In this document: piece after piece, positions 1,682 through 14,236 of the stretch | How the letters are laid out: the number at the start of each line of letters is the position of its first letter | Position numbering within the stretch: position 1 is the stretch's first letter | From: an uncultured Bacteriovoracaceae bacterium | Lineage (GTDB): Bacteria > Bdellovibrionota > Bacteriovoracia > Bacteriovoracales > Bacteriovoracaceae | DNA length: 35,920 nucleotides | Assembly: GCA_950054155.1 (NCBI GenBank) | Contig: CATLOT010000035.1 | Location: 1-35,920 of the forward strand | Direction of reading: 5' to 3' | The notes under the pieces: generated by a model | Told to the model about the DNA's origin: nothing | Database searches by the model: none | What the model saw: the letters and a program-made list of their open reading frames with translations, nothing else | Program-made: the position numbers and the translations under genes

Positions 1682-4600
1682 TTAGGCTTTTGAAATATGA
1701 AGCATAAGCTCGTGCTCTTCAATTGAAAAAGAGTGAGCGTTCGTTTTTTCAGTTGTTTCTTTCAGATCAACTGCCAAGGTTTCTCCACAGATATAGTCTT
1801 TGTGTTGAATTAAGGCACTTTTGAGTTTCTCTGAATCGGTAGCAAATGAGATTGAGATGCGGTCTTCCACATTGAGACCGATATCTTTTCGCGTTCTTTG
1901 GATTCGGTTCACACATTCTCGCGCAAGGCCTTCATCGATGAGCTCATCAGTGAGGTTACAATCAAGATCGATACTGATGTAGCGATTACTGATTGCCTGA
2001 GTACCAGCTTTGGCCTCACGAAAGATGAGGAAGTCATCTGGAGTAAAGGCTTCGTCTCCTAGGAGGAGTGAACCATTTTCTTCGAGTTCTTGTAGCTGTG
2101 CTGTTGTGAGGGACTTAATAAGTTTCATAAATTGGCCCATACGTTTGCCGAATCGCTTTCCTAAAACAGGAAGATTTGGTTTGGCATAGAGGTCAATATA
2201 CTTATCTTCTTGGGTATCATACTCAACATTTTTGATATTAAGTTCGGACTTAATATAAGTTTCAAGCTTAGAGATTTCATCAAGCAGCTCTTGATCTTGA
2301 TGAATGATTGTAACGCGAGCAAGAGGCGTTTTTACTTTAATCTTCTCTTCAGTTCTTTTTTGTCTTCCGAGAAGGATTAACTGTTGCATGCGATCAACGG
2401 CCTGCTCAAGCTTAGGGCGAATGAGTTTTTCGTCTGCCACGGGATAGTCGCAAAGATGAACTGATTCAGGATGAGCTGACTTATCCGTGAAGGCGAGGAG
2501 TTCTTGATAGATATGCTCACTAAGGAAAGGCGCGAAAGGGGCCATCGCCTGAGAAACCTCAAGAAGACAGCGGTAAAGGGTAGAGTAGGCTGCGCATTTA
2601 TCCGTGTTGAGTCCTTCTCCCCAGAAACGAGTTCGGTTGAGGCGGATGTACCAATTGGTGAGATCCTCAATAAAAGTAAAGAGGGCCGGCACAACATTGT
2701 AGAGGCGGTAGCCTTCCATTTCTGTCGCAATATTCTTCTTAAGAGTTTGCAGGTTTGAGAGAATCCAATTGTCAGTAATATTGTCTGAAACTTCAAAATT
2801 CGTCGCGGCATTCCATCCATCAACACTGGCATAAGTGGAAAAGAACTTATGGGAGTTGAGCCAAGGGAGGAGCGCTCGCCTTACCATATCTTTAACACCA
2901 GCATCGGAAAAGCGCATTTCCTCCGCACGAACCAAGCCAGAATTGATCAGGTAGAGTCTCATGGCATCAGCACCATAGTTCTCCATAAGTTCATCAGGAG
3001 CGGTGTAGTTCTTGAGGCGTTTTGACATCTTCTTGCCATCTTCGGCCATCACGATGCCATTCACAATGACATTCTTAAAGGCAGGCTTATCAAAAAGAGC
3101 AGTCGCTAAAATTGTAAGGGTATAAAACCAGCCCCTTGTTTGGTCGAGGCCCTCTGCGATGAATTCTGCTGGGAAACCTTTTTCAAACATTTCTTTATTT
3201 TCAAAGGGGTAATGCAGTTGAGCGTAGGGCATAGAACCTGACTCAAACCAGCAGTCGAGGACTTCAGTAATCCTCTTATATTTTCCCTTTTCTCCTTCAA
3301 CACTAAACTCAAGAGGGTCAACATGCTCACGGTGAAGATCATCTAATTCCACACCGGTGTAGTTCTTAAGTTCTTCAACGGAACCAACACAGATGAATTT
3401 ATCTTCTTCGTCGTTATACCAAACAGGAAGAGGGGTGCCCCAAACACGGTTTCTAGAGATGGACCAATCTCTTGCTCCCTCTAGCCATTTTCCAAAACGT
3501 CCGCCTTTGATATGGCCTGGGACCCAGTTGATTTGGGAATTGGAATGAAGCAGTCTCTCTTTTATCTCTTCGACTTTTACATACCAACTCGGAATCGCCT
3601 TATAGATGAGAGGCGTGTCTGAACGGTAGCAAAAGGGGTAACTGTGAACCAGAACCCCTTGGTCGTAGAGTTTTCCTTCATCTTTGAGGCGCTTGATAAT
3701 GGGCTTGTCGGCGTCTTTGATATACTCACCAACGTAGTCCGTTATTTCTTTTGTATATTTGCCTGCATCATCTACGGGGCAGGCGAAGACTTCAGCAAGT
3801 CCTGCTTCTTTCATGACACGATTATCATCTTCACCAAAACCTGGGGCGAGGTGGACGATACCAGTACCAGCATCTGTGGTGACATAATCATCATTATGAA
3901 TTTGAAAGGCTCCCTTTGCCGCTTGATCTGCGAAATAAGGAAAGAGTGGCTCATAGGTTTTCCCTTTGAGTTCACTTCCTTTGAGCTCTTTTATAACGGT
4001 AAGGTTTCTCTTCTTTTCGTAGTTAGGAAGAAGGTCCTTCGCAAAATAGATATTCTTTCCAAGGTCTTCATCTTTGATGAGAACATAATCGATATCAGCT
4101 CCTGTACAAAGCCCAAGATTGGAAGGAAGAGTCCAAGGAGTTGTTGTCCAAGCTGAGACATAAGCCTCTTCTTCTTTGAGTTTAAAGAGTACTGTTACAG
4201 CAGGGTCTTGAACGTCTTGATAGTTTTGTCCTGCTTCAAAGTTTGAGAGGACCGTTCCCAGTGCTGTTGAGAAAGGAACAACTCGAGTGCCTTGATAGAT
4301 GAGGTTCTTGTCCCAAAGTTGCTTGAATACCCACCAAACGGACTCCATGAAGTTTGTGTCCATGGTTTTGTAATCGTTTTCAAAATCAACCCAACGGCCA
4401 ATTCTTTTGACTGTCTTTTCCCATTCAGAAGTATAGCGCTGAACGATTCCACGACATTCATTATTGTAGCCAGCGACGCCCATTTCTTTGACGGCATCTT
4501 GAGCAGACATGCCAAGTTTTTTATCGATTTCGTGTTCTACAGGAAGTCCATGACAATCCCAGCCAAAGCGGCGCTCAACATAGCGGCCTTTCATCGTCCA

Positions 4601-4825
4601 GTAGCGAGGAACAGCATCCTTGAGAATACCGCCAACCAGGTGGCCATGATGGGGGAGACCTGTCGCAAAAGGAGGACCATCATAGAAAATATAGGGAGCG
4701 CCATCTTTTGTTTTTTCCAGTGACTTTTTAAAAGTCTGATTATCGTCCCAAAACTTCAGAACCTTGTGCTCGGTATCGACAAATGAAAAGCTATCGTTTG
4801 AGTTACTAGAATTTGATTCGCTCAC
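1682..4825 (-). CDS. ileS: isoleucyl-tRNA synthetase, eukaryote-like (type 2)
   Basis: Charges tRNA-Ile with isoleucine in the cytoplasm. It is a class I synthetase of 1047 residues, full length for the family. The HIGH signature appears as HHGH at residues 59-62 after YDGPPFATGLP, and KMSKR is at 599-603. The CP1 editing domain lies between them, with its Thr-rich TTTPWTLPSN segment near 227-236 and TDAGTGIVHLAPGFGEDD near 317. Stretches such as GRWVDFENDYKTMDTNFM and MESVWWVFKQLW are those of the eukaryote/IleS2 branch rather than the E. coli type, and the usual C-terminal zinc-finger cysteines of the E. coli type are absent. It starts with GTG at 4825, preceded by CAGGAG five to six bases upstream. 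It is monocistronic, with its own terminator. Type 2 enzymes are commonly insensitive to mupirocin; that is family knowledge, not visible here. Confidence 0.97.
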   Translation of the reverse strand: MSESNSSNSNDSFSFVDTEHKVLKFWDDNQTFKKSLEKTKDGAPYIFYDGPPFATGLPHHGHLVGGILKDAVPRYWTMKGRYVERRFGWDCHGLPVEHEIDKKLGMSAQDAVKEMGVAGYNNECRGIVQRYTSEWEKTVKRIGRWVDFENDYKTMDTNFMESVWWVFKQLWDKNLIYQGTRVVPFSTALGTVLSNFEAGQNYQDVQDPAVTVLFKLKEEEAYVSAWTTTPWTLPSNLGLCTGADIDYVLIKDEDLGKNIYFAKDLLPNYEKKRNLTVIKELKGSELKGKTYEPLFPYFADQAAKGAFQIHNDDYVTTDAGTGIVHLAPGFGEDDNRVMKEAGLAEVFACPVDDAGKYTKEITDYVGEYIKDADKPIIKRLKDEGKLYDQGVLVHSYPFCYRSDTPLIYKAIPSWYVKVEEIKERLLHSNSQINWVPGHIKGGRFGKWLEGARDWSISRNRVWGTPLPVWYNDEEDKFICVGSVEELKNYTGVELDDLHREHVDPLEFSVEGEKGKYKRITEVLDCWFESGSMPYAQLHYPFENKEMFEKGFPAEFIAEGLDQTRGWFYTLTILATALFDKPAFKNVIVNGIVMAEDGKKMSKRLKNYTAPDELMENYGADAMRLYLINSGLVRAEEMRFSDAGVKDMVRRALLPWLNSHKFFSTYASVDGWNAATNFEVSDNITDNWILSNLQTLKKNIATEMEGYRLYNVVPALFTFIEDLTNWYIRLNRTRFWGEGLNTDKCAAYSTLYRCLLEVSQAMAPFAPFLSEHIYQELLAFTDKSAHPESVHLCDYPVADEKLIRPKLEQAVDRMQQLILLGRQKRTEEKIKVKTPLARVTIIHQDQELLDEISKLETYIKSELNIKNVEYDTQEDKYIDLYAKPNLPVLGKRFGKRMGQFMKLIKSLTTAQLQELEENGSLLLGDEAFTPDDFLIFREAKAGTQAISNRYISIDLDCNLTDELIDEGLARECVNRIQRTRKDIGLNVEDRISISFATDSEKLKSALIQHKDYICGETLAVDLKETTEKTNAHSFSIEEHELMLHISKA

Positions 4826-4976
4826 GCTGACTCCTGATGAAAATCCTCATTTAAGCCGCTAACTCTAACAAAATAAAGAGGTTATGGCGAGAGGCGCAGG
4901 GGGCAAGAGTTGCCTTTTAAAGGGAATAAAACGAGAGGAGTGAAGGCCTAAAAAGAGGTGTGCCGACAAGTAAGTT
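4826..4976. other. divergent intergenic region of ileS and the FecR-like gene
   Basis: This 151-base gap must hold promoters for both directions. I see no convincing -35/-10 pair and no T-box-like leader for ileS. The ileS ribosome site CAGGAG lies at its left edge, while the plus-strand gene has only a distant AAGAGGTG. Confidence 0.4.
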
Positions 4977-6473
4977 ATGAGAATTGCTAAACTTCGTTCG
5001 ATTTTCCTCTTTCTGCTCCTTGGACTGTGTCTGGGAATAGGGGGGGAGCTGACTTCGATGGGAAGAATTTACGGCCAAGAAGAATCAAAGTCAGAAGAAA
5101 AAGTGAAGATTTATGTCAGTCCTGATGAGCAGCTCATCAATCCCTCTGTCATCAATTATCGCGGAGAAAAGGCCTCTCTTATCGATTGGGGTGAGTTGGA
5201 AGAGTCGAGCTTTCTCGATCTCGATCAATGGCGAGTGGGAATTAAAGTTAAGCAAAACACTCCACGCTGGCGGCGTAATCTTCAAGAGAGAAGGTTGCGT
5301 GAAAAGGTGGGGTATGTTCTTGAATGCGTTGGCGAGTGTCGAGTTTATAGAGGAATTGGTCATGCAAAAGTTAACTTTCTCTCTACAGTAAGAGAAGGGG
5401 ATGAGCTTCAAACGATGGATGACTCCTATGTTTGGGTCTATATGCTCGATGGAACCTTAGTGCGCTTATCTCCTCGAGGTTCTCTCACTTTTAAAGAATT
5501 TAATGTAGGAAAGAGTACAAATTTTATGTTTTTGCGCCTCAATGCAGGGAATACTCTCGTTTGGGGGCGCCATGGTGAAAAATTTAAGCCTCAAACAATT
5601 AAGGAAACGGACTCTCTCTTCTTTCCTCTCTCTTTTTCAAAGGCCAATCCTCCCAGTCGTGAAAAGAGACTGAATGAAGAGAATCTCTTTGATTTCTTAG
5701 AAGATAAGAATGATACGATTGATAAGTATAAGCGTCTCAATGGTCTTATTGAGCAAAATAAGAGTTTCACTCGCAAGAAGACAGAGTATTTCCTGGTGAT
5801 GCCTAATGGCACGGTTAAGGCTGAAGAGGTTTCAGCAGAGTTTGTTGTGCTCACTGGGAATAAGAGTTTTTTTAAATTAAGAGAAAAGAAGCAGATTGGT
5901 CTTGAAGGTGATTTTCAAGAAGCGCGTGGCACTTTCTATCACCGAGGTTTTAATAACACTGATACAAGAGAGATCGTAGCGGGTCAGTGGTACGAGGTTG
6001 ATGCTAAGGGCCGGTACATGAGGGAAAAGCCTGAGCCTGGTGTTTTGGCCATGGGTGAATTCGTGACTCAGAACATTCCGACAATTTTAATAGCGCGAGA
6101 GCTTCTTTTTCAGAAATATTCACTCTTTGCTCATGAGCAAATGAATGAGCGGGAGCTTGCCGAGGAGCATGGTTATCGCTTGTGGGGAAGTCGAGAGAAT
6201 GAAAAGAGTGACTATCAGCAGCGCCTGCGCTTTCTGATTGAATACACAAGAAGGGTTGAAACCACCAACCTTCTCGTTGCCGAACAGTTTAAGAAGAAAC
6301 TTGAGCAAAAAGGTGAAAAGTGGAACTCTTCTGAGTACACCCAAGACTTTTATCGCAAAGCGATGGGGGACTTTTACAATTATCGCGAAGGGGCTAGTAT
6401 ATTTTCAGGGGTAAAAGAATCCCTCAATTCAGAGAGAAAGCCTTTCTGGAAGAAAATAAAATCTAAGAAATAA
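4977..6473 (+). CDS. exported protein with a FecR-like domain
   Basis: A 498-residue protein with an N-terminal signal sequence (hydrophobic core about residues 8-23, processing probably near GQ at 33-34). Residues about 112-198 match the FecR-type fold seen in periplasmic proteins: a Cys-containing lead-in (CVGECRVYRG), then VREGDELQTMDDSYVWVYML and DGTLVRLSPRGSLTFKEF, a run of short beta strands. The C-terminal 300 residues are charged, apparently helical and unrecognised. Classical FecR proteins pair with an ECF sigma factor and a TonB receptor, but neither is adjacent, so a signalling role is not supported; a structural or envelope-binding role is more likely. The ribosome site is weak (AAGAGGTG about 17 bases upstream of the ATG). 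maf follows 9 bases after the stop, suggesting one transcript. Confidence 0.8.
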   Translation: MRIAKLRSIFLFLLLGLCLGIGGELTSMGRIYGQEESKSEEKVKIYVSPDEQLINPSVINYRGEKASLIDWGELEESSFLDLDQWRVGIKVKQNTPRWRRNLQERRLREKVGYVLECVGECRVYRGIGHAKVNFLSTVREGDELQTMDDSYVWVYMLDGTLVRLSPRGSLTFKEFNVGKSTNFMFLRLNAGNTLVWGRHGEKFKPQTIKETDSLFFPLSFSKANPPSREKRLNEENLFDFLEDKNDTIDKYKRLNGLIEQNKSFTRKKTEYFLVMPNGTVKAEEVSAEFVVLTGNKSFFKLREKKQIGLEGDFQEARGTFYHRGFNNTDTREIVAGQWYEVDAKGRYMREKPEPGVLAMGEFVTQNIPTILIARELLFQKYSLFAHEQMNERELAEEHGYRLWGSRENEKSDYQQRLRFLIEYTRRVETTNLLVAEQFKKKLEQKGEKWNSSEYTQDFYRKAMGDFYNYREGASIFSGVKESLNSERKPFWKKIKSKK

Positions 6474-6482
6474 GGCCTAAGA

Positions 6483-7112
6483 ATGGAAAAATTTGATCTG
6501 GTGCTTGCTTCTCAAAGTCCGAGAAGACGTGAACTCCTAGGTTGGATAGATATTCCCTTTGATATTCATCCAAGCTCTGTAGAAGAAGTGACTCAGGAAA
6601 CAGAGCCCACGGCTTTTGCTATCGACCTTGCTGCACTAAAGGGACGTGATATTTGGAAGGAACTTGAGGAGGGGCCAAAGAATGCTCTCATTGTTTCTTC
6701 TGATACCATTGTCGAGCTCAATGGAAAGATCTACGGAAAGCCAAGATCTAAAGAGGAAGCACGGCAAATGCTTCTCGAGCTTTCCAATCAATGGCATCAA
6801 GTTGTCACTGCTGTTTTTCTTAAAGGAAAGGTTGCCGGAGAGGTCAGAGAACATTCCTTTGCGGTAAAGACAAAAGTAAAGTTCTCTTCAATAGGTGAGG
6901 ACATCATGGAGCCTTATCTCAAGAGTGAAGAGTCCATGGATAAGGCCGGCGCCTATGGCATCCAAGGCAAGGGGCTGGTTTTTGTCGAAGCTATTGAAGG
7001 TTCCTACTCCAATGTTGTGGGCTTTCCTTTGGTGGAGTTTTTAAATGAACTTAAGGTTTTTATAGGTCTTGGAAAGAATGCTGAAAACTGGCGGGAGTAT
7101 TTCTCATGTTGA
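6483..7112 (+). CDS. maf: Maf-family nucleoside triphosphate pyrophosphatase
   Basis: Hydrolyses non-canonical or excess nucleoside triphosphates to the monophosphate and pyrophosphate. The family signatures are clear: LASQSPRRRELL at residues 8-19, the SSDTIVELNGKIYGKP block with catalytic Asp74, and DKAGAYGIQGKG near 155-165. These residues resemble the YhdE type (dTTP/UTP pyrophosphatase) more than YceF, so I would call it dTTP/UTP-specific with moderate certainty. At 209 residues it is slightly longer than the usual 190-200. It starts with ATG nine bases after the FecR-like gene, and its stop overlaps the next gene by seven bases, so the three genes are probably co-transcribed. Confidence 0.95.
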   Translation: MEKFDLVLASQSPRRRELLGWIDIPFDIHPSSVEEVTQETEPTAFAIDLAALKGRDIWKELEEGPKNALIVSSDTIVELNGKIYGKPRSKEEARQMLLELSNQWHQVVTAVFLKGKVAGEVREHSFAVKTKVKFSSIGEDIMEPYLKSEESMDKAGAYGIQGKGLVFVEAIEGSYSNVVGFPLVEFLNELKVFIGLGKNAENWREYFSC

Positions 7113-7579
7113 AATTAATGACAGCGGCCATCCTTGTTGGACTTCTTCACCAAGCAGATGCTCAGGAAGTCGAAAATAATATTTTTGAATACACCAAGAA
7201 AATTCATAAGAGCTTAGAGGATTTAAAAAATCTTAAGCCTGAAAATTATTTCAGCGAGGTTGATCAATACAGAACTGACCTTGAAAAATTCTTTGAACAA
7301 AAAAAACGAGTTTGTGAAGGGGAGTTTTCAACGGTTATCCTCAATGAAAGCTCCGCCAGTAATCAAAAGAGAAAGCCTGTTAAGTTAAAACCTAAAGAAC
7401 GTAAGCTCTGCTTTAGAGAGCTGAAGGCACTCCAGCTTACCTTTATCAATAATATGTTTCAGGCCCGCAAGAATTATATGCTTCACCTCAGTCAAGAGAG
7501 GATGAAGGAGTTGGAGCTTGCGCGTGAGAAAGCTGTAAAGAGTTTACAGCGCAGCTTTGATAGAAAAAGCCGACTTTAG
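7106..7579 (+). CDS. small exported protein of unknown function
   Basis: 157 residues with a signal peptide (MLKLMTAAILVGLLHQADA, cleavage before QEVENN). The mature part is highly charged and looks helical or coiled-coil (many Lys/Glu, for example HLSQERMKELELAREKAV). It has two cysteines (CEGEFS and KLCFREL) that could form one disulphide. I do not recognise the family. The ATG at 7106 has GGGAG eight bases upstream, inside the end of maf, and overlaps maf by seven bases, indicating translational coupling. Its TAG stop (7577-7579) lies in the loop of the terminator at 7569-7586. Confidence 0.75.
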   Translation: MLKLMTAAILVGLLHQADAQEVENNIFEYTKKIHKSLEDLKNLKPENYFSEVDQYRTDLEKFFEQKKRVCEGEFSTVILNESSASNQKRKPVKLKPKERKLCFRELKALQLTFINNMFQARKNYMLHLSQERMKELELAREKAVKSLQRSFDRKSRL

Positions 7580-7586
7580 AGTCGGC
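7569..7586. terminator. shared bidirectional terminator holding two stop codons
   Basis: The stem is GCCGACT (7569-7575) and AGTCGGC (7580-7586) with loop TTAG. The loop contains the TAG stop of the 7106 gene and, on the other strand, the TAA stop of the 7782 gene. The minus-strand tail is TTTTTCTATC, so it should terminate well in that direction; the plus-strand tail (CTTTGAATGG) is poorer. Confidence 0.75.
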
Positions 7587-7782
7587 CTTTGAATGGTTTT
7601 GTTAGCGACTTACTTTTAAGGACAGACTTAGAGGGTCTTGAACTTAACTTCGCAGCGGGCGAGCGCTTGAGTTGGTTAAGCTTAACCTCGATGATCTTAC
7701 CTTTAGAAAAGACACTTACGTCTTTTACATTAGTTGCTGTCTGTACTGATTTTGAAGTCGTCGAATTATTGTCATGGCCCAT
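7576..7782 (-). CDS. small basic protein of unknown function
   Basis: A 68-residue Lys/Ser-rich protein with no signal peptide or membrane segment. The start is ATG at 7782, preceded by AAGGAG at a spacing of seven bases, one of the best ribosome sites in the window; this is the main reason to accept the gene. The C-terminal third is strongly basic (KSVLKSKSLTKPFKGRL), compatible with nucleic-acid or membrane-surface binding, but that is only a guess. It converges on the 7106-7579 gene, overlapping it by four bases inside a shared terminator hairpin. The opposite frame (7589-7810) has no ribosome site and ends in low-complexity hydrophobics, so I read it as the shadow. Confidence 0.65.
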   Translation of the reverse strand: MGHDNNSTTSKSVQTATNVKDVSVFSKGKIIEVKLNQLKRSPAAKLSSRPSKSVLKSKSLTKPFKGRL

Positions 7783-8124
7783 GATTAGCTCCTTATTTTC
7801 TTTAAGTTAGTAATGATTTGCAGTCTCCTTTAGAGTGCTCATCGCTATTTAAAGAAAATTAAGGACGAAAAACGCCACGCTCTTTAAATAGGATGGTCTA
7901 AAGAATCTGCGCTTTGAGTAAAGCTAGACTCAATACAACCTCCTGACGGTTTGGTCTAAGATACCGTACTTTGTTAATCGGCTATAATTAGCCGAAACTT
8001 AACAACTTTTGCATCTTGTTATCCCCACTATAGCACACAACAGAAAATTGGCCAGAGACCTAGACAGGCAAAGTCCTCCCTAGTGCTGCGAGAATTGTAA
8101 ATGCTTGAAATCTAGGGCAATCTA
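7783..8124. other. gene-free region with a hairpin
   Basis: About 340 bases with no credible protein gene. It must contain the divergent promoters of the 7782 small gene and the TPAT operon. The clearest structure is at 7973-8003: GTTAA, then CGGCTA, a TAAT loop, TAGCCG, and TTAAC closing the outer arm. TATAAT at 7983-7988 lies inside it without a good -35. I see no tRNA, tmRNA, SRP or RNase P signature. An unrecognised small RNA cannot be excluded. Confidence 0.4.
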
Positions 8125-8157
8125 ATGGGTGTTAGCACATTTAGCAAGGGTTTAGAC

Positions 8158-9126
8158 GTGACAAAGATTTTTGGAATCTTGGCATTTCTCGTAGTTTTTT
8201 CAGGCTGTTCAAGCATGAGAAGTGTCGCTCTTAAGACGGCAGCGCCGCTATTTATGGACTCTATGGCCGGTATTGAAGGGGAGGGTTCTTGGCTTCAGTT
8301 TAAGATGGGAACACCTGCAAACCTTACTCTCATTGATGGCCTTCTCGCCGTAAGGCCTCTGGATGAAAACCTCTTGGCCGCCGCTATTAAGGGAAACGCT
8401 GGCTATGGTTTTGGCGTGGAAGAGACCCTTTATCTTGAAGACAAATTAGCTGAGGTTGAAAACTCGGTCCATAAAGAGAGAGCCCTTTATTATTACACCA
8501 AGGCCTTTAATTATGGTCTCAAGTATCTTGAAGCGAATGATCTCTCCTTAGACGAACTGACGAAGTCCTTAAAAACGAAACAAGGAATCGTTGGTCTCCT
8601 GGATTCTCAACTGAGTGGAGATATGACTTCTTTAGAGTCGATGCTCTACATGGGACAATCTTTAGGTTCAATGGTTAATCTTCAAAGAGAGAATATTCAA
8701 ATGGTGAGTTACTTGCCACTCGCTAAGGGCATCTTTGATTGGGTTTGTGACGTCAAAAGAGATATCGCTCACGGCATGTGCGATATTTTCTATGGAAGTT
8801 ATGAAGCAGGGAGACCTGCTATGCTTGGAGGGAATCCCGAAAAGGGGCGTGAGATCTTTGAAAAGTTTATTAAAGAGAATCCGGCCAACTGGTTAGCGCG
8901 CGTGAGCTTTCTTGAGCACTTTGCTATCCCTCAGTACGATGAAGATATCTATCTCTCTCAAAAGAAAGATCTCGAGAAGTTTGTTGTGCTTCACAAAGAA
9001 CAACTTAAGTGGTCGCCTAGTGGGGATGAAAATCCTATGTTCGCAAATAAACGATTGCGTCTTTTTCAAGCGATCGCTGTAAAGAGATTTGAAATTATAA
9101 AAAAGTACGAAAAAGATATTTTTTAA
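8158..9126 (+). CDS. tatT: TatT-type lipoprotein of a TPAT TRAP transporter
   Basis: The T component of TPAT (tetratricopeptide-associated TRAP) transporters, a lipid-anchored periplasmic helical-repeat protein that assembles with the substrate-binding P subunit. From the GTG at 8158 the protein is 322 residues with a textbook lipoprotein signal (MTKIFGILAFLVVFSGC, lipid-modified Cys17). The mature part has the TatT hallmarks: early GLLAVRPLDENLLAAAIKG, then GYGFGVEETLYLE, RALYYYTKAFNYGLKYLE, and a later LGGNPEKGREIFEKFIKENP repeat. An ATG at 8125 in the same frame would add 11 residues; both have weak GGG-type ribosome sites, and I prefer GTG because it gives a normal-length signal. It directly precedes the P, Q and M genes, which strongly supports the assignment. 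Confidence 0.88.
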   Translation: MTKIFGILAFLVVFSGCSSMRSVALKTAAPLFMDSMAGIEGEGSWLQFKMGTPANLTLIDGLLAVRPLDENLLAAAIKGNAGYGFGVEETLYLEDKLAEVENSVHKERALYYYTKAFNYGLKYLEANDLSLDELTKSLKTKQGIVGLLDSQLSGDMTSLESMLYMGQSLGSMVNLQRENIQMVSYLPLAKGIFDWVCDVKRDIAHGMCDIFYGSYEAGRPAMLGGNPEKGREIFEKFIKENPANWLARVSFLEHFAIPQYDEDIYLSQKKDLEKFVVLHKEQLKWSPSGDENPMFANKRLRLFQAIAVKRFEIIKKYEKDIF

Positions 9127-9142
9127 TAAAAAGGTGTATGAC

Positions 9143-10108
9143 ATGAAGAAGATCCTCACAATTGCCCTTATTGGCTTAATGACTCAAGTAAGTGCCGCCA
9201 GAATTAAAGTTGGAGTTCTCGCTCCAGAGGGAACCAACTGGGCGAAGCACATGAAGAAAATGGGTAAAGAAATAAAAACTGCGACTAAGGGAAAGGTAAA
9301 ATTTAAGTTTTACTTTGGAGGCGCTCAAGGGGATGAGAATGATGTCCTGAGAAAGGTGAGGATTAATCAACTCCAGGGAGGAATCTTTACTGGTAAAACG
9401 CTCGGGGATATTCACGGAGATATCCGCGTCGTTGAAATTCCTTTTGTCTTTGGTGACGATAGAGCAAAGGCCTGGTCAACAGTAGAGAAACTAACGCCTT
9501 ACTTTGATAAGAAAATCAAATCAAAAGGTTTTGAAAATCTTGGCTTCTTTGAAATCGGTCTCGTTTACTTTGTTTCTCAAAAGAAGACAGAAAGTTTATC
9601 GGCATTGAGTGGAGTTAAAATTTGGTCATGGGAAGGTGATCGTATTGTTGAGACTATGATCAAGAAAATGAATCTTGTCTCTGTCCCCCTTCCTCTTCCT
9701 GATGTTCTCTCTTCTTTATCGACGGGAATTATCGAAGCCGCTTATGCTCCAGCTATGCCTATTGTTGCTCTTCAGTGGAGTTCTAAAGTTAAGTACCTTG
9801 TGGATTTTCCCATTGCCTATTCCGTAGGTTCATTTTTGATTAGTGATAAAGCCTGGAAGAAAATTTCTCCTGAGCATCAAAAGGTTGTAAAGACTATTGC
9901 TGACAAATATATGAAAAAGGTGAATGAATCTAATATCGCCGACAATCAAGATGCCCTAAAGGCGATTCAGGCTAATGGCGTCCAAATGCTTCAGTTTCCT
10001 AAAGCTGATCAAGAGAAAGCGAAAACATTAAAATCTGAAATTATGACAAAACTAAAGGGGACTCTCTTTAGTGATGAAGGCTTAAATAAATTAAAGTCTG
10101 TTCTTTAA
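9143..10108 (+). CDS. tatP: TRAP transporter solute-binding protein, DctP/TatP type
   Basis: Periplasmic substrate-binding subunit that hands a (usually carboxylate) ligand to the TRAP membrane subunits. It starts at the ATG at 9143, with AAGGTG seven bases upstream; a GTG three codons earlier is less likely. A signal peptide (MKKILTIALIGLMTQVSAA) precedes 300 residues with DctP-family features: IKVGVLAPEGTNWAKHMKKM, FKFYFGGAQGDENDVLRKVR, GVKIWSWEGD near residue 160, and DVLSSLSTGIIEAAYAP near 190. The usual DctP ligand arginine region is replaced by GVKIWSW, as in TPAT P subunits, so the substrate cannot be read from the sequence. It follows tatT by a short gap and precedes tatQ by 35 bases, so it belongs to the same operon. 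Confidence 0.93.
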   Translation: MKKILTIALIGLMTQVSAARIKVGVLAPEGTNWAKHMKKMGKEIKTATKGKVKFKFYFGGAQGDENDVLRKVRINQLQGGIFTGKTLGDIHGDIRVVEIPFVFGDDRAKAWSTVEKLTPYFDKKIKSKGFENLGFFEIGLVYFVSQKKTESLSALSGVKIWSWEGDRIVETMIKKMNLVSVPLPLPDVLSSLSTGIIEAAYAPAMPIVALQWSSKVKYLVDFPIAYSVGSFLISDKAWKKISPEHQKVVKTIADKYMKKVNESNIADNQDALKAIQANGVQMLQFPKADQEKAKTLKSEIMTKLKGTLFSDEGLNKLKSVL

Positions 10109-10143
10109 GCTCTTTAGAGATTAGGTAAGCGCAAGGAGGCGTT

Positions 10144-10668
10144 TTGCTTTTCAAAATAGTCCACAAAATAGATTCGTTGGCTGAGAAGGGAATTACCGCC
10201 CTTCTCGTTCTCTCTGTCTTTGCGATGCTTGGAATGAGCGTTTCCAATATCGTTCTTCGCTGGTTTGACTCTCATGTTTTATGGTTTGAGCCGGCCGTCA
10301 GGTATTTGGTTTTTATCTGTGCTTTCCTAGGAGGTGCTATTGCCACTGGTAAACGCACTCATATTGGAATAGACCTGATTGGTAAATACTTTGAAGCAAA
10401 GGAAATGTGGGAAGCCCACCGTTGGATTGGAAGAATTATTGATTTTGCTTCCATCATAGTGCTCCTTTATCTAACAAGTGCTTGTGTTGATTTTGTCGCT
10501 GAAGAAGCCAAATATGGCCGAGATAATGTTTTCATCGGTCTTCACGCCAAGCATTTAGCTGCGATTATTCCCTTCGGTTTTGGCATAATCTGCTTTCGCT
10601 TTATTACAAATATTATTCTGTCTTTTTCAAAAGAGTTTCGTTTCAACGTTAATGGAGGGCATGAATAA
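10144..10668 (+). CDS. tatQ: TRAP transporter small membrane subunit, DctQ/TatQ type
   Basis: Small four-helix membrane subunit of the TRAP transporter, 174 residues. It starts at a TTG (10144) with a near-perfect AAGGAGG four to five bases upstream, which decides the start. Four hydrophobic segments fit the family: about residues 18-38, 50-66, 96-115 and 136-158. The DctQ-type motif region is visible as FEPAVRYLVFICAFLGGAIA followed by KRTHIGIDLIGKYF, with the conserved HIGIDL. Its TAA stop overlaps the ATG of tatM by one base (TAATG), indicating translational coupling and equal dosage of Q and M. Confidence 0.93.
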   Translation: MLFKIVHKIDSLAEKGITALLVLSVFAMLGMSVSNIVLRWFDSHVLWFEPAVRYLVFICAFLGGAIATGKRTHIGIDLIGKYFEAKEMWEAHRWIGRIIDFASIIVLLYLTSACVDFVAEEAKYGRDNVFIGLHAKHLAAIIPFGFGIICFRFITNIILSFSKEFRFNVNGGHE

Positions 10669-11927
10669 TGGAATGGCTAATTATTCCTGGAATCGCTCTT
10701 CTCGCTCTTCTTGGAACACCACTTTTTATCATAATGGCCCTGGCAGCAATGGTTGGGTTTCACCTCTCTGAGATTCCACTTGTTGCGGTTGCAATTGAAA
10801 TTAATAAGCTCTCTTCTCAGGCGAGTATTTTAACAATTCCACTCTTTACGTTTGCAGGCTATATGATGGCCGAGAGTGGATCTCCTAAAAGGCTTTTAAG
10901 ATTTGCGGAAGCGAGTCTAGGGTGGTTGCCTGGCGGTGTTGCCATTGTCAGTCTTGTCATTTGTGCCTTTTTTACGGCCTTTACTGGGGCGAGTGGGGTG
11001 ACCATTATTGCTCTTGGGGGGTTGCTCTATCCTATTTTAAATAATGAAGGATATACGGAGAAATTTTCGCTTGGCCTTATCACAACATCAGGTTCTCTCG
11101 GCTTACTCTTTCCACCGTCGCTTCCGATTATCCTTTATGGTCTTGTTACCAATGTCGATATTGAAAAGCTTTTTGTTGCGGGGATTCTCCCGGGAATTCT
11201 TCTGATCGTTATTCTCTCTCTCTATGCGATTCGAAAGGGAACACTTCAAACAAGTCATACTAAATTTGAAGTTAAAGAGTTATGGGACAGTTTTAAGGGA
11301 TGCTGGTGGGAAGTACTTCTCCCTGTTGGAGTCCTCTATGGCATCTATAGTGGTAAGACGACGACGACAGAAGCTGCTGCTGTGACAGCTTTTTATATCT
11401 TCATTATTGAAGTGTTCATTTATCGGGACCTTAAAATTACTAAGGATATCCCAAGAGTGATTAAAGACTCTATGAGTTTAGTAGGGGGAATTCTTCTTAT
11501 CTTATGTTGTGCTCTTGGTTTTACAAATTGGCTTGTAGATGAAGAAATTCCGATGAAGATTCTTGAATTCATGCAAACCTATTTAACGAGTAAGTACAGC
11601 TTTTTACTCTTCCTGAATATCTTCTTGCTTATTGTTGGTTCTTTGATGGATATTTTTAGTGCGATAATTGTGGTTGTTCCTCTGATTACGCCGATAGCGG
11701 AAGAGTTTGGAGTTAACCCCATCCATCTTGCGATTATCTTCCTCACAAATTTGGAAATAGGCTATATCACTCCTCCTGTGGGGATAAACCTCTTTATTAG
11801 TAGTTTTCGATTCAAGAGACCAATAACTGAACTTTATAGGGCATCATTTCCCTTTCTCTTACTTATGTTGGTTGCGCTCGCTATAATTACTTATGTCCCT
11901 GCATTGAGTTTATTTCTTGTAGAGTAG
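10668..11927 (+). CDS. tatM: TRAP transporter large permease, DctM/TatM type
   Basis: Large membrane subunit that carries the Na+-driven transport pathway; 419 residues with about a dozen hydrophobic segments. DctM signatures are clear: IPLFTFAGYMMAESGSPKRL near residue 57, FFTAFTGASGVTIIALGGLL near 102, TSGSLGLLFPPSLPIILYG near 140, and IFLTNLEIGYITPPVGINLF near 360. The ATG overlaps the tatQ stop by one base. A secreted protein begins five bases after its stop, so the operon probably runs on. Direction and ligand cannot be inferred from the sequence; family members are importers. Confidence 0.95.
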   Translation: MEWLIIPGIALLALLGTPLFIIMALAAMVGFHLSEIPLVAVAIEINKLSSQASILTIPLFTFAGYMMAESGSPKRLLRFAEASLGWLPGGVAIVSLVICAFFTAFTGASGVTIIALGGLLYPILNNEGYTEKFSLGLITTSGSLGLLFPPSLPIILYGLVTNVDIEKLFVAGILPGILLIVILSLYAIRKGTLQTSHTKFEVKELWDSFKGCWWEVLLPVGVLYGIYSGKTTTTEAAAVTAFYIFIIEVFIYRDLKITKDIPRVIKDSMSLVGGILLILCCALGFTNWLVDEEIPMKILEFMQTYLTSKYSFLLFLNIFLLIVGSLMDIFSAIIVVVPLITPIAEEFGVNPIHLAIIFLTNLEIGYITPPVGINLFISSFRFKRPITELYRASFPFLLLMLVALAIITYVPALSLFLVE

Positions 11928-11932
11928 GTATT

Positions 11933-13531
11933 TTGGGTAATTTTTGTCGCAAATTTCTATTTATTCTCCTTTTGCTTGGGATTTCTGCCCAAGCAAAAGA
12001 TGATTCCAATTCCTATTATGATGCCGTCTTCTTAGGGGAGAAGGATGCTGGTCAATATGAAGGTCCAGTTAATTCTTTGGTTAACTTTGACGAGCATTTG
12101 GCGACAAAAACTTTTTTAGATGATCTCTTTGAGGAAGATTTCTTTCTCGATCTTTCCTCACCGGCTGTTGGAGTTCTAAAAGAGAGCTGGTTCAACGAGT
12201 TACCAGGGATGAGTTCATGCCCCAATTATTACCTCAAAGATAATATTGAATATATTCGTTATCTCTACCGATTAATTACCATTTCTTATCTCTTTGAGTC
12301 TCTTAAGGAGCATGCAAAGGTCGCTTATTCTTTTGGAATCGATAATAAGGTTTGTACCCTTGATTGGAAGGATGTCTTTGGTAAATGTTCCCCAGAGACA
12401 GTTGATATGAAAACCTTTGTGCGCAGAACACGAAGCCGTTATCTTATTGGGTACGATGTTCTTCAAAACCCGCAATTTAAGTCAAATCAAAAAAGGTCTT
12501 GGATAAGTGAGAAAAGAGATCTCGTAAGTGATAATAGTTTAGAAACAATTGTGGACTATAGGCTTAGAAAATATTGTGAAAAGAATGGCTGCAAGGACCT
12601 CGATGAAGCCGGCCTCTTCAAGTTTCTCAAGAATACCTGTGAACAAGACAAAGAGCATATTCAAACCTTTTGCTCCGAAAAAGACAGCTTGTTCGGAATT
12701 AGTGAAACCTCTATTCCAAGAGATCTTTTAACAACTTCGAATGTTATGAGAGTTATTAATGACGGCGGTTTCGCGAAGAATTGTCTTAATCGTTACTCAA
12801 GCCTCTTCAGTAAAAGAGAGCGAAAGTACCCTTGGCTAGAGGGGCTATTCTTCTATCTTGATAAACAAATTAAGAAGGAAGAGCGAAAGTATGCCCAAGG
12901 TGAGGTTTTCCTACCAGGAGCTTTAAAAGAATTTGATGATCGGGGACTAACTGAATTTCTCTTTGTTACTCCAACTCCCACTCCAACACCGGTACCTGTT
13001 GTCGTAACGCCAAAGCCGACACCAAAACCTGTCGTGGTAGCGAAGGCAACACCTACGCCTAAACCAACTCCAAGGCCGACTCCAAAACCTACACCAAAGC
13101 CGACACCTAAACCCAAGCCTTCTCAATTTGAGTTAGCTCGCATGAAGCTTGTTCGCAAGCAGCTCAAAAGATCGCCTGTTGATATGAGTCAATTCTCTCA
13201 AGAGTTTACTTTTTCTCCTCAGGTGGTCAGGGCCATTAGTGCTCCTCTCAAAGACTTTCAAACGAGAGAAGCTCTCGAAGACCTCAAGCGCTTTGATAAG
13301 TTGGGAACCAAGAGACAGCCTGTTCGTCTTCTCTTTCTAAAGCTTCTTATTGATCAAGAAGAGCATACGGGGCTTTGGAATATTGTCGGGGTTCTCGGAA
13401 ATACTTTCTACGTCATAAATGATCTTGAGAAAAAGAGAATACCGGTTGTTGTTGAGTTAAAGAATGATGAAAGTACAGGGCATATCTGGCAGCTTACCAT
13501 CATTAATGAGCGCTTTTATAAGAAGAAATAA
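11933..13531 (+). CDS. exported protein with a Pro/Thr-rich linker
   Basis: 532 residues, starting at a TTG (11933) with TAGGT-like pairing just upstream, followed by a signal peptide (hydrophobic residues 8-17, cleavage near AQAK at 19-22). The N-terminal part (about 25-340) is unrecognised and has eight or so cysteines, including a KYCEKNGCKD pair and CEQDKEHIQTFCSEKD, suggesting disulphides. Residues 346-396 are a low-complexity linker of TP, KP and VV units. The C-terminal 135 residues form a second domain ending in a beta-rich stretch (LFLKLLIDQEEHTG, LGNTFYVINDLEKKR). Such linkers usually connect two extracytoplasmic domains across or along the cell wall. It is encoded five bases after tatM, so it may be functionally tied to the transporter. 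Confidence 0.8.
   Translation: MGNFCRKFLFILLLLGISAQAKDDSNSYYDAVFLGEKDAGQYEGPVNSLVNFDEHLATKTFLDDLFEEDFFLDLSSPAVGVLKESWFNELPGMSSCPNYYLKDNIEYIRYLYRLITISYLFESLKEHAKVAYSFGIDNKVCTLDWKDVFGKCSPETVDMKTFVRRTRSRYLIGYDVLQNPQFKSNQKRSWISEKRDLVSDNSLETIVDYRLRKYCEKNGCKDLDEAGLFKFLKNTCEQDKEHIQTFCSEKDSLFGISETSIPRDLLTTSNVMRVINDGGFAKNCLNRYSSLFSKRERKYPWLEGLFFYLDKQIKKEERKYAQGEVFLPGALKEFDDRGLTEFLFVTPTPTPTPVPVVVTPKPTPKPVVVAKATPTPKPTPRPTPKPTPKPTPKPKPSQFELARMKLVRKQLKRSPVDMSQFSQEFTFSPQVVRAISAPLKDFQTREALEDLKRFDKLGTKRQPVRLLFLKLLIDQEEHTGLWNIVGVLGNTFYVINDLEKKRIPVVVELKNDESTGHIWQLTIINERFYKKK
12968..13120 (+). repeat. Pro/Thr/Lys low-complexity coding repeat
   Basis: Encodes TPTPTPTPVP, VVVTPKPTPKP, VVVAKATPTP and then a ladder of KPTP and RPTP units. 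The repeat is imperfect at DNA level (varied codons such as ccaact, ccgaca, cctaca), so it is kept by protein-level selection and is not a simple DNA microsatellite. Confidence 0.85.
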
Positions 13532-13535
13532 AAAA

Positions 13536-13557
13536 GGGGGCCTCCTGAGAAGCCCCC
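13536..13557 (-). terminator. terminator between convergent genes
   Basis: The stem is GGGGGC (13536-13541) and GCCCCC (13552-13557) with a ten-base loop that can pair further internally. On the minus strand the tail is TTTTTATTTCTTC, so it ends the 14236-13586 transcript; A-rich sequence just upstream of it on the plus strand gives partial function for the 13531 gene too. TGACTCAGTCA (13558-13568) follows immediately. Confidence 0.8.
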
Positions 13558-13585
13558 TGACTCAGTCACATTTTAAGTGCGACGA

Positions 13586-14236
13586 TTAGTCATATTTCTT
13601 TGCAATTTTCTTAAGTCTCTTTGTTACAGTCTTACTTAGGTCAAGAAGAAGAACGAAACCTGAGTTCTCACCGTTAGCATCTGGGCCAACAAGAGAGATA
13701 TTTCCGGCACGAGCGCTACCTGAGTAGTAACGAGCTGTAATGATGTTGTCCTGACCGATATCAACTTTTACAGGAACAAATACACCAAAGAATTTTGGTC
13801 CTAGATAGAAAGACATGTTCTTCCACTTAGGAATAGTAAAAGCTACAGCAGGGAGACGTCCTGAAGATACACCTGGAAGGTTTCTACCACCTGGAAGTGA
13901 TTGAGGAGGAAGAAGTTGAAGGTCACCGTTGAAAACGTCCTGAAGTGAAACACTGATAGACATAAGTGTTCCAGCTGATTGGAGGTCTGGCTCAACAGCA
14001 ATATATGAATTGTCATACTTAGGGATGTTGTATCTTAGTCCACCGTCAAGTTGAATATTTTCAAAGACCATAGAAATAAGAATGTTGTCTTGTTGGAGCA
14101 CTAGATCAGGTCCATTAACACCTGGGATATCTAGTGATGTTTTTCCGTCTCCACAACTACTCCCAAGAATTGCAGATAGAAGAATTAGGGTTGATACAAA
14201 AAGGTTTCTGGCTCTCGTTACTCTAAAGATGTTCAT
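13586..14236 (-). CDS. probable lipoprotein of unknown function
   Basis: 216 residues with an N-terminal basic-hydrophobic signal (MNIFRVTRARNLFVSTLILL, then SAILGSSCGDG). The cysteine at about residue 28 sits in a loose lipobox (LGSSC, with Gly rather than Leu at -3), so lipid attachment is likely but not certain. The mature protein is beta-rich and Gly/Pro-rich (for example LLPPQSLPGGRNLPG and SFYLGPKFFGVFVPVKV), with a basic C-terminal helix (KTVTKRLKKIAKKYD). I do not recognise the family. The gene stands alone, with a strong terminator downstream and, in its leader, a perfect 12-1-12 inverted repeat at 14246-14270. Codon choice looks regular, and the elaborate leader suggests tight or high expression; that part is inference. 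Confidence 0.75.
   Translation of the reverse strand: MNIFRVTRARNLFVSTLILLSAILGSSCGDGKTSLDIPGVNGPDLVLQQDNILISMVFENIQLDGGLRYNIPKYDNSYIAVEPDLQSAGTLMSISVSLQDVFNGDLQLLPPQSLPGGRNLPGVSSGRLPAVAFTIPKWKNMSFYLGPKFFGVFVPVKVDIGQDNIITARYYSGSARAGNISLVGPDANGENSGFVLLLDLSKTVTKRLKKIAKKYD

Follow-up and report, generated by a model that had tools for sequence, protein, structure and literature searches.

A separable fifth gene behind the tatTPQM transporter genes of Bacteriovoracaceae encodes an exported two-domain orphan

The tatTPQM-X locus

The window, by which we mean the whole stretch of 35,920 nucleotides of an uncultured Bacteriovoracaceae bacterium that was analysed, carries a TPAT transporter locus followed directly by a gene for an exported protein (Table 1). 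The subunits T, P, Q and M that the initial annotation placed here in order were all recovered, each with a Pfam match above its cut-off: 93 bits for TAtT (PF16811, cut-off 26.5), 135 for DctP, 58 for DctQ and 292 for DctM. A TPAT is defined by a TAtT-domain protein, by DctP/DctQ/DctM-type subunits encoded beside the T gene, and by a TatT that is a lipoprotein. The first two are present, with the subunits in order; the third is read by pattern alone, from the lipobox FSGC in the window and a lipobox in 55 of 68 T N-termini of the family. A further mark of a TPAT, at the level of protein chemistry, is a TatT trimer in complex with TatP. Of the two possible starts of tatT, the GTG at 8158 yields the better lipoprotein signal (VTKIFGILAFLVVFSGC), the other being the first ATG at 8125. 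TatT of the window had no significant match among PDB sequences.

The fifth gene, which together with its product we call X, begins directly after tatM, five bases beyond its stop and with a TTG start at 11933, as had been annotated. The other spacings are 7 bp between T and P, 35 bp between P and Q, and a 1-bp overlap of Q and M. The five-base junction between tatM and X showed no terminator-like site. The genome (3.52 Mb in 61 contigs, 99.9% complete) has a single DctM and a single DctP match, both at this locus, so that by these models the TPAT is its only TRAP-type system, and one PF16811 protein was found in it.

Table 1. Features of the tatTPQM-X locus and its surroundings in the window
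Feature	Coordinates	Strand	Evidence
"FecR-like" (working label), exported protein, first gene of the conserved neighbourhood	4977..6473	+	weak similarity to LipL45/Lsa33 model, E 0.0019, far below cut-off; synteny
maf, nucleotide pyrophosphatase	6483..7112	+	PF02545 5e-54; TIGR00172
ORF157, small exported protein, conserved upstream neighbour	7106..7579	+	synteny; no family match
Small basic ORF, 68 aa, divergent from tatT, motif SLRPxKSxxxxKSLRPK	7576..7782	-	conserved; no Pfam match
Intergenic region, presumed promoter of tatTPQM-X	7783..8124	+	matching region precedes X in a relative lacking TPQM
tatT, TRAP T-component lipoprotein (alternative GTG start 8158)	8125..9126	+	PF16811 93 bits; lipobox FSGC
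tatP, DctP-type solute-binding protein	9134..10108	+	PF03480 5.5e-39
tatQ, DctQ small permease subunit	10144..10668	+	PF04290 1.6e-15
tatM, DctM large permease subunit	10668..11927	+	PF06808 8.7e-87; the genome's only DctM
X, 532-aa exported two-domain orphan	11933..13531	+	signal peptide, helical Cys domain ~62-340, linker ~341-397, C-domain 398-526
Terminator-like hairpin just 3' of X	13535..13558		T-run on minus-strand reading

Between positions 7400 and 8400 no Rfam family was detected. No sigma-70-like site was seen on the plus strand upstream of tatT, in a scan whose total fell below that of shuffled sequence and is thus uninformative. The two exported proteins that flank maf, the FecR-like protein and ORF157, belong to no family, and for both of them synteny with TPQM-X holds throughout Bacteriovoracaceae. 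The small basic ORF between ORF157 and tatT lies in the same place in most mapped loci; its relatives are mostly of about 55-90 aa, with the motif in the C-terminal part. Downstream of X, on the minus strand (13586-14236), a convergent gene encodes an exported or lipoprotein-like orphan of 216 aa that is conserved, and sometimes duplicated, in relatives.

Architecture and relatives of X

The description of X as a secreted two-domain protein with cysteines is borne out by its 532 residues, in which we found a signal peptide, a Cys-containing N-part, a linker and a C-part. The signal peptide has no lipobox, its cleavage is read as AQA-KDD, and a lipobox-like pattern occurs in one of 68 N-termini of the X family. 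AlphaFold2, run on 37 sequences, gave a pLDDT of 79.9 for whole X and 92.4 for the C-domain alone, and predicts an all-helical N-domain that is joined by the linker to the C-domain. Six cysteines (96, 141, 152, 236, 247 and 284) are invariant in 65 of 65 X sequences longer than 430 residues. The TP/KP linker that had been noted is present in X of the window (~345-396), but across the family its composition varies, with 2-47% Pro, and only its length is kept (47-71 residues, median 58); consequently, we regard the TP/KP repeat as a local style and the tether length as the conserved feature.

A proline-rich linker could suggest a TonB-like energy transducer or a wall-anchoring protein. A match to the TonB_N polyproline model points in this direction, at 21.7 bits against a cut-off of 33, but it is confined to the linker, where the proportion of Pro is not conserved, and the model matched one of 37 X members. 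In the same 37 members, searched against Pfam at E 0.01, the C-part had no match at all, and neither a TonB C-terminal domain nor a wall-binding family was found. We rejected this reading, which we consider very improbable.

Other searches were also negative. Against Pfam, NCBIfam, PHROGs and PADLOC X fitted no family, with only linker-only or very weak matches, and against PDB sequences it gave only linker or chance-level matches. In fold searches with whole X and then with the C-domain, the best Foldseek E values were 0.88 and 1.2, and VIA-align gave a best Z of 3.3 and none of 2 or more, respectively; the lack of a PDB fold match does not prove a new fold. In none of the Pfam, PDB-sequence and fold searches did X match a known binding or anchoring domain.

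X has relatives close to home. A scan of genome contigs with the single protein gave no matches, though genomes of relatives exist, and a query with an alignment returned 39 X loci, with named relatives (GTDB contigs) in Bacteriovoracaceae, Halobacteriovorax and Bacteriovorax. A profile of the C-domain matched 109 of 368 genomes of the phylum; the listed matches all fall in Bacteriovoracaceae (129 genomes), and the 239 genomes not listed gave none. Homologues of X occur in 111 of the 129 family genomes, far beyond chance and not unique to this genome, and X is single-copy in nearly all of them. Judged by sequence, X is a lineage-specific orphan of Bacteriovoracaceae.

Gene order, splits and losses in the family

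The fifth gene had been assigned to the TPAT locus, and in the family it does lie there: X directly follows tatM in 83 of 129 genomes, 44 of them mapped gene by gene and 39 assigned solely because T and X lie 2679-3080 bp apart. Of the remaining genomes, 8 are cut by contig ends, 4 have T-P-X, 6 have T-X, 6 have X without TPQM, 4 could not be placed and 18 are without X. The 39 named loci show the order T-P-Q-M-X wherever the contig is long enough; they overlap the genomes of the census and were left out of the count. X was never found off this locus where the contig was informative, so that a position of the fifth gene elsewhere in relatives was not borne out.

This regularity favours the idea that X is a genuine fifth TPAT component, acting in ligand capture or docking and freed for another job in a few lineages only. 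Further points in its favour are that X remains with T and P when the operon is split and that its rate of change covaries with theirs (see below). The notion of X as simply an extra transporter component does not hold, however, in six genomes that have X without TPQM (G158, G136, G140, G145, G134 and G052) and in six that have TPQM without X anywhere (G009, G019, G048, G051, G053 and G157; in G053 the absence rests on genome-level X searches). Since an obligate subunit should be present if and only if TPQM is, and there are six exceptions each way, we do not class X as a TPAT subunit. Nor is X relaxed in closely related genomes that keep it alone, and we regard a true fifth component as somewhat unlikely.

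In some genomes the operon is split. G014 and G163 keep T-X at the home locus and P-Q-M orthologues together on another contig, and in G059, where T-X is likewise at home, another contig starts with an M orthologue. T-P-X stays at home with Q-M elsewhere in G025, G031 and G118, and with a fragmentary M elsewhere in G128. By genus code these splits fall into at least three groups (g9; g20/g26; g24), and g24 also holds the full order (G029 by gene map, G117 by spacing). X remained beside T or T-P in all the splits that we observed, and in none of them beside Q-M. Furthermore, G137 has T-X and no DctM, in a genome that is 81% complete, and in G055 and G160 a short T precedes X and a DctM is encoded elsewhere, in the case of G055 within a second-type TPAT. 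As a separate observation, on the 7.7-kb contig of L069 tatT (4460-5416) comes directly after the FecR-like gene, and the rest of the contig beyond tatT contains none of Maf, ORF157, P, Q, M and X.

In the six genomes that lack T, P, Q and M at the locus, the FecR-like gene, Maf and ORF157 are followed by X at a distance of about 410-525 bp. One of these genomes, G158, is a single contig of 4,153,408 bases, and none of the six has a DctM above the cut-off anywhere (G134 has a sub-cut-off match of 9.9e-4). All six carry a second-type PF16811 protein elsewhere, which says little, given that PF16811 is found in 123 of the 129 family genomes; the same frequency leaves a test of whether X always needs a PF16811 protein powerless, and we dropped this idea. 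A tree of Maf and the FecR-like protein from 60 genomes does not unite the X-only genomes in one clade, and places G140 (X only) as sister to G141 (full operon) with SH-aLRT 88. On this quick tree, which has several long branches, a minimum of 13 changes is required over five gene-order states.

X is under purifying selection in the X-only genomes. In pairs among G140, G136 and G158, with synonymous sites saturated, its pN of 0.15-0.20 is close to that of maf (0.17-0.19), and in the more distant pairs of G134, G145 and G052 with G158 the values are 0.26-0.39 for X and 0.24-0.30 for maf. As X is kept in species that have lost the whole transporter, it must have a function of its own. The DNA 5' of X in G140 aligns with that 5' of tatT in G141 with a score of 383, against a best of 28 in 100 shuffles, and consequently X apparently took over the promoter region of T after the loss of TPQM; the more distant G145 and G052 show little or no similarity to that tatT-upstream region.

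Taken with the persistence of X without TPQM and of TPQM without X, the inheritance of the T promoter region would suit an envelope gene that is unrelated to the transporter and has no more than the operon promoter in common with it. What speaks against such independence is that X stays on the T side in all splits and that its rate covaries with those of T and P in preference to those of Q and M. Using pairwise distances among 33 genomes that hold all eight genes, with the other genes controlled and 500 permutations, a test that leaves some shared ancestry in the values, we obtained r 0.32 for X-T (0/500 permutations as high) and r 0.22 for X-P (6/500). There was no covariation for X-M (r 0.09, 92/500 permutations as high) or X-Q (r -0.16, 473/500). 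X and ORF157 also covary (r 0.24, 4/500 permutations as high), and part of the signal of X may be a neighbourhood effect. Rate covariation agrees with the splits in linking X to T and P and not to Q or M, and we consider an unrelated gene unlikely.

A proposed T-side envelope protein and comparison with known systems

The reading that we favour, with about as much confidence as doubt, is that X, specific to Bacteriovoracaceae, is exported to the envelope, probably to the periplasm, as a protein of two domains. Its gene would as a rule be the last of the TPAT operon and be expressed together with the transporter; X would work on the side of T, or of T and P, rather than of QM, and would have in addition a role outlasting loss of the transporter. 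This reading draws on the synteny, on the retention of X with T in the splits and without TPQM under purifying selection, on the promoter region taken over from T, and on the rate covariation. We place X at the T side because of the complex proposed for Treponema TatT and TatP and the precedent of BstC, both considered below. Under this reading, the N-domain, stabilised by disulphides, and the C-domain on its tether would each bind a different envelope partner, and in this way X might hold or feed, in the outer periplasm, a lipoprotein of the T type with lipid cargo; PQM would be an optional step, adding only import into the cell. The signal peptide, the cysteines, the two predicted domains with their tether, the synteny and the retention of X are seen in the sequences, whereas the operon, the location of X, its disulphides, its cargo and its contact with T are predictions. 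Counted against a T-side role are the six genomes that retain X after T has disappeared from the locus, the six in which TPQM persists without X, and the covariation of X with ORF157; nor has either domain a known fold that would hint at function.

A wider proposal is that Bacteriovoracaceae have an envelope system for hydrophobic cargo, made up of T-component lipoproteins and X, that works independently of TRAP. The TRAP permease would then be an optional and repeatedly lost add-on, and X a new kind of T-component partner unrelated to solute-binding proteins. We put this forward as a doubtful, speculative extension. The gene orders of this family (T-X, T-P-X, X alone, TPQM without X) amount to natural experiments in which the periplasmic module and the permease come apart, and they bear on the cargo of TPAT and on the role of the T component. 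X itself is conserved, its two predicted domains match no recognised fold, and the bacterial family that carries it has members that prey on other bacteria.

Second-type TAtT/TPAT loci of the same family and phylum (e.g. L172-L176, L161-L165) have the same T-P-Q-M order; unlike the locus described here, they have no X after tatM in the ten inspected (L161-L165, L168, L172-L174 and L176). In two of these ten, L161 and L162, the gene directly after tatM encodes an exported protein (of 651 and 377 aa) that looks unrelated and does not match the X profile. Second-type TAtT proteins also occur alone, without P, Q and M (L211-L217), and in genus g33 (L216, L217) the lone gene is followed by apparent ExbB/ExbD-type genes, a putative assignment from frame reading.

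Our literature searches, with subscription literature mostly outside their scope, turned up no publication that deals with a fifth TPAT gene or with TPAT in Bacteriovoracaceae. The TPAT of Treponema pallidum (TatT Tp0956, TatP, TatQM) resembles the present one, in the available account, in combining a PF16811 lipoprotein with DctP/DctQ/DctM-type partners in one operon. According to the accessible text of a review, Treponema TatT and TatP form a complex, with the proposed task of moving hydrophobic ligands through the periplasm. The same text describes a three-gene operon with no fifth gene, unlike here, and a TatP that is a lipoprotein, whereas only 4 of 61 TatP proteins in our family have a lipobox-like N-terminus. 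BstC of Methylococcus capsulatus is a sterol-binding PF16811 protein that is proposed to act without a TRAP permease, a precedent for T-components outside TRAP; an RND-type protein and a phosphonate-type binding protein have been suggested as its partners, and nothing like X is named in the available part of that paper (PMC10942540). The TPAT is known in kind, and what is new is the five-gene arrangement with a separable orphan.
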